A DNA stretch of 35,712 bases from a virus: IMG/VR virus record IMGVR_UViG_3300037882_000724, positions 1 to 35,712 of that record; one strand, written 5' to 3'. Below the pieces are notes generated by a model. That model worked only from the letters and a program-made list of their open reading frames with translations. It did no database searches and had not been told where the DNA came from. Position numbers and translations under genes: made by a program. Shown here piece after piece: positions 7,190-16,020 of the stretch (its first letter is position 1; every line of letters starts with the position of its first letter).

Positions 7190-7384
7190 ATGGACTTAGA
7201 CCGACTCGCCGCAAGGTTACGCACTGCACACAGTAGGTATTCTTTACGTCAGCTTGCCAAGTGGTGTAAAGGTAAGGTTTCTCACGAATACCTTCGCACG
7301 ATCATTACAAACGGTTGCCCTGATACGATTTCTGTCGGCCGTTACAACTCTATCGATCAAGGTTTAGCCGACAATGGCTTTTGA
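7190..7384 (+). CDS. small helix-turn-helix DNA-binding protein (Cro-like size)
   Basis: The 64-residue protein starts at ATG 7190. Its segment 'SLRQLAKWCKGKVSHEYLR' fits a helix-turn-helix, with a first helix, turn at Gly/Lys and recognition helix. No ribosome site precedes the ATG, and the promoter -10 ends only 7 nt upstream, so the message is probably leaderless as for lambda cI from PRM. It overlaps the primase start by 11 nt. Placement at a divergent promoter with a dyad suggests an autoregulator of the early switch. No repressor family is recognised by name. Confidence 0.65.
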   Translation: MDLDRLAARLRTAHSRYSLRQLAKWCKGKVSHEYLRTIITNGCPDTISVGRYNSIDQGLADNGF

Positions 7385-9767
7385 ACGCATTCCCGCAGAA
7401 ATGCGGGCGTTTAAATCTTGGTGCGTTTGGCGGTTGGAAAGAAATCTAGACGGAAAGCTAACTAAGATTCCGTACAGCCCGATTAGTGGCTACAAGATTG
7501 ATCCGACAGCGCCGCATCATTGGGTAACGTTTGAATCCGCAGTAGCGGCGGCGGAGTCACGCCCAGAATGGTGGAGCGGTATTGGCTTTGTTCTTTCCGA
7601 AGCCGACCCATACACATTTATTGACTTAGACGAACCGAAAAACCCAGACGGATCGCCGTTAGAGTCTGACGAATACGCGCGACGTTTTGACCATCAAAAT
7701 AACATTTTTAATGCCTTTCCTTCTTATTCGGAATTGTCACCTTCGGGCAAAGGTTTACACATTATTTTGCGTGGCGAAGTTCCCGCAGGTCGCAAACGAA
7801 ACAATGTAGAGATTTATTCGTCAAAACGTTTTATGACGATGACGGGGAATGTTTACACAAATTCGCCTATCAATTATTACAACAACGAATTAAAATCCCT
7901 ATGGGATGAAATGGCACCGGCTAATCAGTCATCAGAACTGTATTACGCTGGCCTTGAACGTGAAGTAAACACTGACGAAAAGGTAATTCTTTATGCGCAA
8001 AGTGCTAGCAACGGTGAGCTATTTCACGATCTGTATTTTAATGGGGATTGGGCTAAACATAATTACCCTAGTCAATCCGAAGCTGATTTTGCGCTTGTTG
8101 ATATTATCGCTTTTTATTCAAGAAATAGAGCACAAGTTAACCGCATATTTCTCAACTCACGACTAGGGCAGCGCGAGAAATCGCGGGCGCCTTATCGGAT
8201 TAAGAAAATGCTAGATCGTTGTTTCGACAATTTGCCAGCACCGATTGACATTCAAAGTATAGCCAATAATATTTTGGCAAGTCAAATGGAAAAAGATAGA
8301 CAAAAGCAAATTGCCAAAATTAATTCTGCGGTTGCTATTGACCATGAAAAAGATTATTTAGAATGCGTTGAACCGCTGTTTTTTGATGAGTCTAAGGAAT
8401 CGCCCTACAACCCACCACCCGGCCTAATGGGTGACATTGCGCGATTCGTGTTTGCTCAATCCTATAGACCAATCCCGGAAGTCTCACTAGCGGCAGCAAT
8501 CGGGCTTATGGCGGGCGTTTGTGGACGCGCATTTAATACGCCTACGGGCTCAGGCTTGAATCAATACGTGCTGGTTTTAGCCCCTACCGGATGCGGTAAA
8601 GAAGAAATGGCTAAAGGTATTCAAAAACTTTTTAACGAAGTCGGCAAAACTAATATTACTTCGCGTGATTTTCTCGGCCCTTCTGACATTTCTAGCCCGC
8701 AGGCTTTAACTAAATACTTAGGTAAAAAATCAGCGTCTTTTGTCTCAATTATTGGCGAATTCGGAATTTATTTCAAAAACATGGCGACGGCAAACGCTAG
8801 CCCACACATGCAAGGATTGAGCCGCGCGCTTTTAGATTTTTACGGCAAGTCTGGAAATAAACAATCTGTGGGCAGTATGATTTATTCCGATTCGGAAAAA
8901 AATACAGCCGTTGTTAATGCACCAGCAATGACCATTCTAGCCGAGTCGGTGCCTGAAAACTTTTATTTGAATTTGAACGAATCAATGATTCAGTCAGGTT
9001 TATTGCCACGTTTTACAATTATTGACTACAAAGGGGATAGAGTTAGGCCGAATAAAGCATGTGCTTCTGTAATGCCATCCGACAGCCTTATTCAAAGTTT
9101 GAATTCTCTTATGTCGCAAGCTGCGTTGTTGAATAGTCAAAATATGGTTATCAATGTGCAGCAAACCGAAGAAGGGCGGCAATTGCTTGATAAGTTTGAA
9201 GAATATGCGGACAATAAATCGTTAGGTGCTAATGAAACTGTTAGATCACTTTGGACTCGCGCTTATCTTAAATCGCTTCGCCTTGCTTGTTTGGTGGCGG
9301 TAGGTGTTAATTCTTTTCAGCCTACTATTGATAAAGCGGCGGCAGAATGGGCCATCCGAATAATTCGTACTGATGTTGAGGCGATGTTGCGTAAATTTGA
9401 ATCTGGCGAAGTTGGCGAAAATACGCATGAAAATGAACAGATTCGCACAGTACTTAGACTTGTTAATAAATACGTCAATGACGCATGGGAAAAAGTCACT
9501 AAGACTGTCGGTGCGGCAAAACTTAAGCCTTTGCATGATGCAAAAATTGTTCCTTATACTTTCTTACAAAAATCCACCTCTAGCGTAGGATTGTTTAAGA
9601 ATGACAAAATAGGCGCAACAGCAGCGCTAAAGCGCACTCTTAACGTGCTTTGTGAACGTGGCGACCTTCAAGCAGTACCACGCGCCGAATTGGCTAAGTT
9701 CGGCACAGGTTCAGCAGCCTATGCAATCACTAACATTGATGCAATTTTGAACTTGACAAAAAATTGA
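7374..9767 (+). CDS. primase-polymerase/helicase fusion (NrS-1-like primase plus DUF3987-like ATPase)
   Basis: This is the largest gene in the window (797 aa). Residues 1-165 look like an archaeo-eukaryotic primase as in NrS-1-type phage polymerases: 'FIDLDEP' supplies Asp84 and Asp86, 'SPSGKGLHI' has His129, and 'NNVEIYSSKRFMTMTG' follows. A helix-bundle segment ('SQSEADFALVDIIAFY') joins it to a DUF3987-like ATPase with Walker A 'APTGCGKE' (about 403-410). The last ~110 residues ('PYTFLQKSTSSVG') recur in the minus-strand gene at 14404-14979. It should prime, and perhaps extend, DNA and unwind the origin. No separate polymerase is visible in the window. Confidence 0.85.
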   Translation: MAFERIPAEMRAFKSWCVWRLERNLDGKLTKIPYSPISGYKIDPTAPHHWVTFESAVAAAESRPEWWSGIGFVLSEADPYTFIDLDEPKNPDGSPLESDEYARRFDHQNNIFNAFPSYSELSPSGKGLHIILRGEVPAGRKRNNVEIYSSKRFMTMTGNVYTNSPINYYNNELKSLWDEMAPANQSSELYYAGLEREVNTDEKVILYAQSASNGELFHDLYFNGDWAKHNYPSQSEADFALVDIIAFYSRNRAQVNRIFLNSRLGQREKSRAPYRIKKMLDRCFDNLPAPIDIQSIANNILASQMEKDRQKQIAKINSAVAIDHEKDYLECVEPLFFDESKESPYNPPPGLMGDIARFVFAQSYRPIPEVSLAAAIGLMAGVCGRAFNTPTGSGLNQYVLVLAPTGCGKEEMAKGIQKLFNEVGKTNITSRDFLGPSDISSPQALTKYLGKKSASFVSIIGEFGIYFKNMATANASPHMQGLSRALLDFYGKSGNKQSVGSMIYSDSEKNTAVVNAPAMTILAESVPENFYLNLNESMIQSGLLPRFTIIDYKGDRVRPNKACASVMPSDSLIQSLNSLMSQAALLNSQNMVINVQQTEEGRQLLDKFEEYADNKSLGANETVRSLWTRAYLKSLRLACLVAVGVNSFQPTIDKAAAEWAIRIIRTDVEAMLRKFESGEVGENTHENEQIRTVLRLVNKYVNDAWEKVTKTVGAAKLKPLHDAKIVPYTFLQKSTSSVGLFKNDKIGATAALKRTLNVLCERGDLQAVPRAELAKFGTGSAAYAITNIDAILNLTKN

Positions 9768-9822
9768 AGACGTTTTAAGCTTTAGCTTTCCCACCCTTGA
9801 GCGACGCACATAGGAGAACGAC

Positions 9823-10146
9823 ATGGACATGTACGAAGACGATGACCAGCAGGAGGGCCTGTTGTGCGTCCGGTGTGGCAAGGACACCTGCTGCAACCCC
9901 GACGTATCGACCATGCCACCAGCGTGGGCGGAGGACCTTGTGTGCAACTGGCTCTGCAGCGATTGTCTGGACGCGCGTGACGAAGAGGAGGCGGCCGACG
10001 CAGTTGAGGCGAGCCCCGAGCGTTTCGAGGCGGCGCAGGCGATGCGCAACGAGGCCATCAAGACCATGCACCTGGACCCGTGCAAGAACACGCCGGACCT
10101 TGACGCTGCTGTCGCGAGATACCTCGACGCCAGCGAGCCCAACTGA
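9823..10146 (+). CDS. cysteine-rich putative zinc-binding protein (GC-rich cassette)
   Basis: The 107-residue protein follows a good ribosome site (TAGGAGA, 6 nt before the ATG). The N-terminal half has 'CVRCGKDTCC' and 'CNWLCSDC', two CxxC-type knuckles likely to bind zinc. The rest is an acidic helical region ('DARDEEEAADAVEA') and an Ala/Asp-rich tail. Codon use is strongly GC-biased, unlike the genes before 9.77 kb and after 10.9 kb. An overlapping frame (9797-10219) is also open, but that is a by-product of high GC. The function is unknown. Confidence 0.7.
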   Translation: MDMYEDDDQQEGLLCVRCGKDTCCNPDVSTMPPAWAEDLVCNWLCSDCLDARDEEEAADAVEASPERFEAAQAMRNEAIKTMHLDPCKNTPDLDAAVARYLDASEPN

Positions 10147-10169
10147 AACCCAAGCCCCGGAACTGACCC

Positions 10170-10508
10170 ATGAACAACACCGAAATCACCGAGCGCTCAG
10201 CGCGCGCCATCGGCCTTGACCCGTGCGGGTTCTGGCGCGGCAGCGCTGTGGAGTGTCGCGGCCCGGACGCTACAACCGGCGTCGGGGACTTCTTCTGGTG
10301 GAACCCGCTCGGCAGCGGCAACGACGGCATGCACTTGGTCAAGACCCTGAAGCTGACCGTGGCGCCTGAGCCCTCGCGTGGCGGATGGTCTGTCGGCGCC
10401 GTGGTCAAGGGCGAGTTCAAGTGGCTGGTCCATGGCGATGACGCGCAGCGTGTGGTCGCTGAAGCTGCTGCGTCGCTTCCTCCCGCTTCCACGCCCGTCT
10501 ACCCCTGA
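10170..10508 (+). CDS. hypothetical protein (112 aa, GC-rich cassette)
   Basis: The protein reads 'NNTEITERSARAIGLDPCG' at its start and contains several Trp and Gly residues ('DFFWWNPLGSGNDGMHLV', 'SRGGWSVGAVV'). No domain is recognised. It shares GC-rich codon use and C/A-rich leader spacing with its neighbours, and lies 23 nt after the previous stop. No strong ribosome site is visible, only GGAACTGACCC before the ATG. Confidence 0.6.
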   Translation: MNNTEITERSARAIGLDPCGFWRGSAVECRGPDATTGVGDFFWWNPLGSGNDGMHLVKTLKLTVAPEPSRGGWSVGAVVKGEFKWLVHGDDAQRVVAEAAASLPPASTPVYP

Positions 10509-10532
10509 CCTTCCAAGCCCCAAGCCTCGACT

Positions 10533-10673
10533 ATGAACAAATCAATCGCCTACGCCATCGCCTTCTCAACTTGCCAGGCGCTGGCCTGCTTCGCCCCGAC
10601 AAAGGTAGATCAGGTCGTTACCGCCTTTCTGGCCGGGTGCTTTGGCGCTCTGCTCATCCTCCACCGTCCCTGA
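10533..10673 (+). CDS. small hydrophobic protein (46 aa, GC-rich cassette)
   Basis: ATG 10533 opens a 46-residue frame with two hydrophobic stretches ('IAYAIAFSTCQALACF' and 'VVTAFLAGCFGALLIL') joined by 'APTKVDQ'. A two-pass membrane microprotein is the simplest reading. It is too short for a family call. Spacing and codon use match the other cassette genes. Confidence 0.5.
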   Translation: MNKSIAYAIAFSTCQALACFAPTKVDQVVTAFLAGCFGALLILHRP

Positions 10674-10700
10674 CCCAGCCCTTCGACTGTGGACCACCCC

Positions 10701-10853
10701 ATGACCACTGAGACGCCCGCACCCGCTCCGTTGGAGCTGAAAGACCTGATCGGCCAGGTTGTCCTAGAAGTCGGCACCGAGAACGTGTACGACTACTACC
10801 CCGGGTTCGTGTCCTCGTTCCACCCCGAGCGCATGGCTCACAACGCCGGTTGA
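10701..10853 (+). CDS. small hypothetical protein (50 aa, GC-rich cassette)
   Basis: This 50-codon frame begins 'TTETPAPAPLELKDLIGQ' and ends 'HPERMAHNAG'. It is the last gene before the cassette's terminator. It may be a truncated version of a longer protein, since the 'ENVYDYYPGFVSSFHPE' segment ends abruptly. The function is unknown. Confidence 0.45.
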   Translation: MTTETPAPAPLELKDLIGQVVLEVGTENVYDYYPGFVSSFHPERMAHNAG

Positions 10854-10878
10854 ACCCATCCCCCGAACTCAACGATTG

Positions 10879-14403: not shown

Positions 14404-14979
14404 TTATTTGAATACGTAAACTTTACAGTTGGTATTGTATTTTGACATTGAACCATGTGGAACTTCTAGAAGTTCTTCAGTCATCGCTAGTGCCTCTTTT
14501 AGCGCTGCCGTTGCACCTGCTGGGTGATTTTTAAATATACCTACGCTTGATGTTGATTTTTGCAAAAACGTATATGGGATGAATCGAGTCCCTTCTAGCT
14601 TCTTTGCCAAATCAACACCCAGGGTTGCGGCATGTTTCGCGTGACCTTCTGTGATCAACTTATTACAAAGTCTCAATATCTTAGCTTTGCGATCTTCTAT
14701 GCTGCTAGGTGGCGAACCTTTATCCATTTCTAAATAAGCCGATTCGATATCAAAATTGTTTGTCATTCGGCGGATAACAAAATGCCCGTTCACTTCGGCA
14801 ACCATGTATCGAATAGCGCCTTTCGATTTGCTATCAAGGAAAGCCCTCAGTATTGCGTATGTCAGTGTTGACTGATTAACCGGGTACGGGGCTATTTCTT
14901 GTGTTTCATTTAGCGTATTGAGCGCGATTGCAAGGGATTGCAGCTCATTGTCACGGTATTGCACAGTCTCAAAGTTCAC
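14404..14979 (-). CDS. free-standing copy of the primase-helicase C-terminal domain
   Basis: GTG 14979, preceded by AGGGA, opens 191 codons. Residues about 95-191 align with the end of the 7374-9767 primase-helicase. Both have 'PYTFLQKSTSSVG', then 'FKN' and 'GATAALK', and similar Leu-rich helices before it ('ILRLCNK' versus 'VLRLVNK'). The first ~90 residues are unique and include 'YPVNQSTLTYAILRAFLDS'. The shared part looks like a winged-helix that might bind DNA or a partner. It is transcribed leftward, away from the origin-like gap at 15.1-15.35 kb. A regulator, loader or competitor of the primase-helicase is an inference. Confidence 0.75.
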   Translation of the reverse strand: MNFETVQYRDNELQSLAIALNTLNETQEIAPYPVNQSTLTYAILRAFLDSKSKGAIRYMVAEVNGHFVIRRMTNNFDIESAYLEMDKGSPPSSIEDRKAKILRLCNKLITEGHAKHAATLGVDLAKKLEGTRFIPYTFLQKSTSSVGIFKNHPAGATAALKEALAMTEELLEVPHGSMSKYNTNCKVYVFK

Positions 14980-15102
14980 AATATTATTCCCTATAGTGGT
15001 GCATTGATTATGCGTTAAGAGAGCCAGTTATCTCAAAACGGCCAGAGTTTAACATGGTTTGCTGTTGTTATTCAATACCAGTGCAAAACATTATTTTGTA
15101 GT

Positions 15103-15345
15103 GAGGGGGTAAGGGTACACCCCCTTGCGTATATTGCAACAATACCCGATATTACGTGATAATGCCTAGAATTGATGTAAATTGATGGGATATGATTCAG
15201 AATTGAAGGGATTATCGGGGATTGTCGCGTATTGACGGGGTTTTGTAGGGGAGTCACCCCCTATATAATAATATAATAATAATAATAATAATAATAAATA
15301 ATATAAGAATACTCTTGTAAATCCGATCAATTGATGGCATTGATG
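15103..15345. other. candidate replication origin: iteron-like array plus A/T-rich tract
   Basis: The gap 14980-15432 has no gene. It holds in order a GC hairpin (AGGGGGT/ACCCCCT, 15104-15125), seven consecutive 10-bp units from 15171 to 15240 with the consensus ATTGAYGGGG (units 3 and 7 bp-divergent), a second hairpin (TAGGGG/CCCCTA, 15246-15263), and 45 bp of pure A/T (15262-15306). Two more ATTGATG copies lie at 15330 and 15339. Iterons with one-helix-turn phasing beside an unwinding element are the classic plan of an initiator-dependent origin. A separate A/T microsatellite explanation covers only the TAA repeats. Confidence 0.5.
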
Positions 15346-15432
15346 ACATAGAATTTTTCTATAATTCGAGAAAAAGGCCGACAATTGCAGGAAATGCGGT
15401 TATGCTGTCAATCTCGCAACTTAGGAGCAACT

Positions 15433-16020
15433 GTGTACGAATTTGTCCAACCGTCCGAAAAAGCATTAAAGGCAACTTGCAACGAGTTTCAAAAGAAATA
15501 CAATTTTCCGTTTGAGAAATGCCCTGTAGGTATGTCGTTTGTGGTCAGAAAGGACGAAGTTAGCGCTATTGGCGTATTGCGTTCTCTCTGTACGCGGCAA
15601 GGTCAGCGATGGGGTAAGCAGTTTCGCGTTACCGAACATGAAGACCGTTTCGAGATTAGCTGTGTAAGGCTGCGCGACGAAGGACCACAACAGCCCAAAT
15701 CTGTGGGCAGACCAGCAAAGGTAAAAGAACCTAAGCAGGTCGAGCAGCGGGTTATCGAACCAACAGCGGCGCCTAAGTTCTTCACCGATTCGCCAAATCC
15801 TAAAAAGAAATACGGTGTGCTAGTTGCAGAGCCTGACCATGAAACAGGCATCGGCCGCGCAGGCTGCTATCAGTGCGGCACCATTCGCGAATTCAACGCA
15901 TACGAAACGCCGTATGATGCCGAAAAGTCAAGATTTACGTTGACGTGTGGATTTGAACCGTGTAAACTTGAATTTGAAGTACCGGATACGATCGAACCAA
16001 CAAAGGATGACGAATCGTGA
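15433..16020 (+). CDS. phage protein with C-terminal zinc-ribbon-like cysteines
   Basis: The frame is open from TTG 15385, but GTG 15433 has a near-ideal ribosome site (TAGGAG, 6 nt) and a TATAAT box lies at 15360, so I start there (195 aa). The N-terminal 80 residues ('VGMSFVVRKDEV', 'GQRWGKQFRVTEHEDRFEIS') look compact. A Lys/Pro-rich linker ('VGRPAKVKEPKQVEQRV') resembles AT-hook-type basic segments. The C-terminus has 'CYQCG' and 'CGFEPC', which could form a zinc ribbon. Its place next to the iteron region makes a DNA-binding role attractive but unproven. Confidence 0.65.
   Translation: MYEFVQPSEKALKATCNEFQKKYNFPFEKCPVGMSFVVRKDEVSAIGVLRSLCTRQGQRWGKQFRVTEHEDRFEISCVRLRDEGPQQPKSVGRPAKVKEPKQVEQRVIEPTAAPKFFTDSPNPKKKYGVLVAEPDHETGIGRAGCYQCGTIREFNAYETPYDAEKSRFTLTCGFEPCKLEFEVPDTIEPTKDDES

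Follow-up and report, generated by a model that had tools for sequence, protein, structure and literature searches.

Why would a phage keep, as a separate small gene next to an AT-rich gap, a second copy of the C-terminal domain of its own primase-helicase? The question is raised by a 35,712-base IMG/VR virus record, which was analyzed at its full length (hereafter the window). Since relatives measure 41-45 kb, the record probably lacks a part; its gene set is that of a tailed phage: terminase, portal, head protease, major head protein, helicase, Cas4-type exonuclease, Sak4-like protein and MazG. The two proteins concerned are the primase-helicase, P1, and the product of the free-standing minus-strand gene, P2, whose coordinates and strand the initial annotation had given exactly (Table 1).

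Table 1. Positions in the window of the genes, domains and sites discussed in the text
Feature	Positions	Strand	Remarks
P1 primase-helicase	7374..9767	+	797 aa; AEP-type primase/polymerase, MCM-like AAA+ core, C-terminal winged helix
Winged-helix domain at the C-terminus of P1, residues ~685-797	9426..9764	+	
Segment of P1 (residues 729-739) that corresponds to the coupled helix-turn	9558..9590	+	
Terminator-like hairpin directly after P2	14378..14398	.	
P2, free-standing paralogue of the primase-helicase C-terminal domain	14404..14979	-	191 aa, GTG start
P2 winged-helix domain, residues 94-191	14407..14700	-	homologous to P1 C-terminus
P2 residues 137-147, helix-turn tracking the same-genome primase	14539..14571	-	
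P2 N-domain, residues 5-90	14710..14967	-	weak match to the N-domain of the free-standing family
Origin-like intergenic gap between two divergent genes	14980..15432	.	GC 0.36 vs 0.45
Nine ATTGA sites, densest cluster of the window, candidate repeats for both proteins	15003..15343	.	at 15003, 15072-, 15171, 15181, 15202, 15231, 15327-, 15330, 15339
Promoter-like site of P2, TTGAGA-18-CATAAT	15007..15036	-	weak: 4 sites found vs 3.4 expected
TAA-repeat AT tract, candidate unwinding element	15265..15306	.	
Divergent neighbour with the same N-domain type	15433..16020	+	phrog_10287, E 9e-7; Cys-rich tail

By BLASTP, P2 101-188 aligned with P1 693-783 at 41 identical of 91 positions (45%, E 2e-20), and a search of the whole record returned P2 77-189 at 39% identity (E 5.6e-20). 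The initial annotation had proposed about 100 shared residues and a P2 N-terminus of 90 residues of its own; both proposals held, with a shared domain of ~95 residues, the named blocks PYTFLQKSTSSVG, FKN and GATAALK present in P1 and in P2, and ~90 N-terminal residues of P2 that are absent from P1. It had also suggested a profile search, which we ran with an HMM built from the primase C-termini of 16 other phages (P1 left out) against all six-frame ORFs of the window: P1 (E 4e-44) and P2 (E 3.5e-13) matched, and no third ORF in the six frames was credible, the next match standing at E 0.2. Within the window the relation is specific to these two places. Chance likeness can be dismissed, because the BLASTP and HMM matches are specific to both proteins. 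Among the primases tried, the one closest to P2 was P1 itself (75.9 bits vs 43.1 for the next), a closeness that came mostly from the block QKSTSSVG-FKN, where other primases carry sequences such as QRRLASVAVFRKD.

Judged from its codons, the duplication behind P1 and P2 is old. Across 57 aligned codons the DNA of the two was 55% identical (94/171), with different codons at 15 of the 29 identical residues; in the block PYTFLQKSTSSVG, silent codon differences were found at eight of 13 residues. Moreover, P2 has three residues deleted before its last strand. A recent duplication or gene conversion as the source of P2 was considered, and is ruled out by the silent differences together with the domain tree described below.

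Structure prediction of both proteins, a check that the initial annotation had suggested, modelled a winged helix in each. P2 (mean pLDDT 84.7; above 90 over residues 101-191) is predicted to be a small alpha/beta N-domain followed by a winged helix: VIA with P2 91-191 gave Z of 5.3-7.0, and its rows were nearly all winged-helix proteins. Foldseek with the P2 model returned no row at E below 0.001, and the matches of the N-domain (PARN R3H region, Z 6.3; ribosomal S8, Z 5.4) were too weak to name its fold. P1 matched phrog_3022 ("DNA primase") over its full length (E 2e-215), and its first 260 residues matched AEP-type primases of solved structure. The model of P1 291-797 (88.6) consists of an MCM-like AAA+ core and then a winged helix; the core aligned with 3f8t over 250 residues (VIA Z 18.0, rmsd 3.6), the best 50 rows were all MCM, and Foldseek matched it to the MCM-type fold at E 2.9e-6. 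An MCM-like AAA+ region (Z 18) in the helicase part is missing from the Pfam and PHROG annotations of this common phage "DNA primase". In MCM helicases, too, a winged helix follows the AAA+ core, but where these have their N-domain P1 has an AEP-type primase. The loading of cellular MCMs depends on ORC/Cdc6 and related proteins. The gene order MazG, small HTH protein and primase is also found in isolate phages whose primases are 44-46% identical.

The free-standing copy is not peculiar to this phage: PHROGs contains a free-standing family of this kind (phrog_29311), and at least 13 other phages carry such a gene. P2 alone as query gave no matches among phages or in IMG/VR, and relatives were reached only via the primase and the domain profile; no credible Pfam match was obtained for P2 or its relatives, and a PDB sequence search with P2 gave no match. 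A search of 101 loci with this primase revealed free-standing copies, in frames of 211-244 aa, in 13 further phages (RcTitan, RcSpartan, FtMidnight, Epa40, VCLv11, BREN6, Kmi2C and six metagenomic phages). The form in which the N-domain is fused to the primase domain was present in 14 of about 100 primase loci, and in about eight isolates of 160 records. The shared domain by itself gave a profile too variable to scan the collection with, and further scans with alignments of the free copies returned only loci already known, or none. The free copies match phrog_29311, for which PHROGs names no function; the other members did so at E 6e-11 to 7e-154, and P2 weakly (E 2.4e-3, residues 32-188 on 58-224 of the 235 profile positions, with both domains covered).

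An N-domain of about 85 residues is common to all the free copies; the match of the P2 N-domain to this family is weak by itself (E 0.009 in the window search). The same N-domain type occurs alone (phrog_10287) in phage 73 gp39, KL1_00041 and others. In Septimatrevirus the two forms are alternative alleles of the gap gene: phage 73 (L005) carries a 98-aa N-domain form and Epa40 (L104) a 219-aa form with N-domain and primase domain, and after either allele comes an 80-aa gene with 96% identity between the two phages. Members of phrog_29311 (235 aa; RcTitan, RcSpartan, FtMidnight gp37 and Epa40_00046) resemble P2 in having an N-domain and then the primase C-terminal domain, and in a gene that adjoins an AT-rich gap downstream of the primase. 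P2 differs from them in its very divergent N-domain, its weak profile match and its strand: the opposite orientation noted in the initial annotation is true of the window but exceptional, since the copies of other phages lie on the primase strand. In a domain tree computed without the coupled segment (see below), the 13 other free copies formed one clade (support 98/86) and P2 stood outside it on a long branch; one clade including P2 was not rejected (AU p 0.43).

The new evidence is a coupling between the two copies within each genome. The primases and free copies of 14 genomes (11 of them independent) were aligned, and same-genome pairs were compared with shuffled pairings. Over a 17-column segment beginning at the motif of the initial annotation, same-genome pairs shared 9.3 identities vs 7.0 in shuffled pairs (z 5.2, 14 genomes). 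With the window left out, as the segment had been chosen from it, z was 4.1 (p < 1e-4), and the excess persisted with one genome per close cluster; the three flanking parts of the domain showed little or no same-genome excess (p mostly 0.02-0.7). An unguided 11-column scan, with no preset segment, peaked at P2 137-147 / P1 729-739 (family-wise p 0.0005, the smallest value that 2000 shuffles allow), and neither omitting the window nor omitting any single genome changed this. The coupled columns were T137, L139, Q140, S142, S145 and G147 (each p 0.002-0.023), and the exceptions were the pairs of L028 and L046, which differ at the Q/H/N column. Such same-genome likeness is not explained by recent copying, because the free copies of the 13 other phages group together in a single clade. 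Old paralogues that are alike within a genome only in one surface segment point to a shared genome-specific target, and P1 and P2 most likely recognise the same one.

By analogy with the systems discussed below, that target is probably a set of origin repeats. The gap beside P2 had been called origin-like: the gap itself is real, AT-rich and repeat-bearing, and it has the look of a replication origin. ATTGA was its most enriched 5-mer (10 vs 1.9 expected; any 5-mer was as frequent in 2% of 500 shuffles), and per 400 bp there were nine ATTGA in the gap, five in the next best region and 1.4 on average over the window. These repeats lie 5.4 kb downstream of the P1 gene. In every relative inspected, an AT-rich gap (177-931 bp, GC 0.26-0.38 vs 0.39-0.54) lies directly upstream of the gene or of its N-domain-only allele. 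The relatives' gaps have in common an AT tract, GTATAAnG-type repeats, CTAAGTCnTTGA boxes that occur in both orientations and a strong TTGACA promoter on the gene's side; the ATTGA repeats of the window might instead correspond to the CTAAGTCnTTGAT boxes of relatives. In six of the loci (L003, L005, L045, L046, L104, L105) conserved CTAAGTCnTTGA boxes, oriented opposite to each other, flank the repeats and the AT tract.

Across the family, the repeat clusters downstream of the primase vary with the type of helix: for instance, ATAGTAA is found in FtMidnight, ATATCTA with N-type helices and GTATAA with Q-type helices. When tested over many phages, the match between helix and repeat types had weak, suggestive support (partial Mantel r 0.08-0.12, p 0.05-0.23, with a noisy automatic repeat caller), and the case for a shared target is not built on it. 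Strong clusters of short repeats, candidate origins whose sequence varies by phage, were seen after or near the primase in ten loci (L009, L015, L056, L060, L064, L084, L088, L089, L092 and L097).

Several known systems resemble this arrangement in part. SaPI Rep and SCCmec Cch2 use the C-terminal domain to recognise iterons located downstream of the helicase gene, and in isolation that of Cch2 suffices for specific iteron binding (PMC7581432). P1 resembles them in its modelled AAA+ core and C-terminal winged helix, which may bind DNA; in SaPI Rep and Cch2 the domain exists only within the helicase, and PMC7581432 describes no natural free-standing copy. The sequence match between P1 and the SaPI5 primase is confined to the primase part. 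In Pseudoalteromonas plasmids, the small protein PrpA binds to the iterons of the origin, blocks the initiator and regulates its own expression (PMC7848731). It works as proposed here for P2, but is an unrelated antitoxin and not a copy of the initiator's own domain. In repressors of the papillomavirus E8^E2 type, an origin protein is reduced to its DNA-binding domain and lacks the active part; they are spliced from one gene and are unrelated to P2, and the likeness lies in the way of working.

Taken from sequence, models and these analogies, our main reading, with a probability of about 0.5, is that P2 duplicates the origin-binding domain of P1 without the helicase, binds the same repeats and tunes initiation. 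For this reading we infer a DNA target, an origin in the gap and a regulatory effect, and the proposed steps are: i) P1 would attach through its C-terminal winged helix to short origin repeats, here probably those of the ATTGA-rich gap; ii) following the precedent of SaPI Rep and Cch2, P1 would load its own helicase at the gap; iii) P2, a small separate protein whose N-domain is its own, would have the recognition helix of P1 and bind the same repeats; iv) P2 would most likely occupy the repeats against P1, tuning initiation as a competitor or regulator; and v) P2 would most likely also repress its own promoter, situated in the gap. Among repression, assistance and autoregulation, we favour the role of a competitor or regulator of initiation; that competition of this kind occurs is shown by PrpA. 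The suggestion of the initial annotation, that a free copy could load, regulate or compete with the primase-helicase at the origin, is partly supported.

P2 may instead be a positive accessory factor, whose winged helix sits on the origin repeats while its N-domain opens DNA or recruits P1 in the manner of a loader. The gene is recurrent and intact at the origin-like gap, and the N-domain is kept as a separate protein in phages without the fused domain, which implies a function of its own there; however, the fused form is absent from most phages with this primase and so is not needed for loading as such, and we consider an accessory role possible but rather unlikely.

That P2 is mainly a transcription regulator with a borrowed winged helix, with the gap serving divergent promoters and replication affected at most secondarily, is in our judgement unlikely. 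Divergent genes do flank the gap, the second hexamer of the P2 promoter-like site overlaps the ATTGA site at 15003, and the TTGACA promoter of relatives is strong on the gene's side, but the promoter count in the window is at the shuffled level, and regulation of transcription by itself leaves unexplained why the helix tracks the primase of the same genome.

The position of the coupled residues bears on a further reading. They form the second helix and the following turn (H136-143 and turn), ahead of the usual recognition helix (H156-166), and because they lie outside that helix, caution is due on DNA as the target. The shared target might then be a phage or host protein, with both winged helices docking one partner or P2 capping P1. 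Winged helices often bind proteins, and among the best structural rows YceH, ScpB and MukE appear along with forkheads; on the other hand, the partner would have to vary from genome to genome as fast as the helix, which origin repeats do (a suggestive point), and a protein target seems improbable to us.

Finally, P2 is very unlikely to be the decaying leftover of a partial duplication, for despite its divergence, long branch and three-residue deletion it has a full-length frame, a ribosome site (AGGGA 8 nt ahead of the GTG start), a high-confidence fold and intact relatives, and keeps 13 consecutive residues in the face of eight silent differences.

A broader and more tentative proposal, which we hold to be somewhat doubtful, is that a whole group of phages with MCM-like primase-helicases would keep a helicase-less copy of the helicase's origin-recognition domain, the reading helix of the copy in step with the helicase of the same genome, as a built-in competitor or licensing factor that could also exclude co-infecting relatives using the same repeats. 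If true, it would supply an origin-control protein for phages with MCM-like primase-helicases and a function for an unnamed phage protein family. Moreover, it would name 11 residues that should set origin specificity, and would make origin recognition testable by helix swaps in common phages (relatives of Septimatrevirus, Titanvirus and Kilunavirus).

Some features of the neighbourhood were also observed. The divergent neighbour of P2 ends in the Cys-rich tail CYQCG...CGFEPC; as this neighbour has the N-domain as well, a protein with such a domain is encoded on each side of the gap. Immediately after the primase lies a GC-rich cassette of small genes (9820-10870, 61-66% vs about 43%), one of which matches phrog_5086; it occupies the place of the repeat cluster in many relatives. 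In Langgrundblatt1 (L011 2213-2857) the annotated primase consists of two overlapping frames, of which the second comprises the helicase end and the C-terminal domain; this may reflect a frameshift or a real split.
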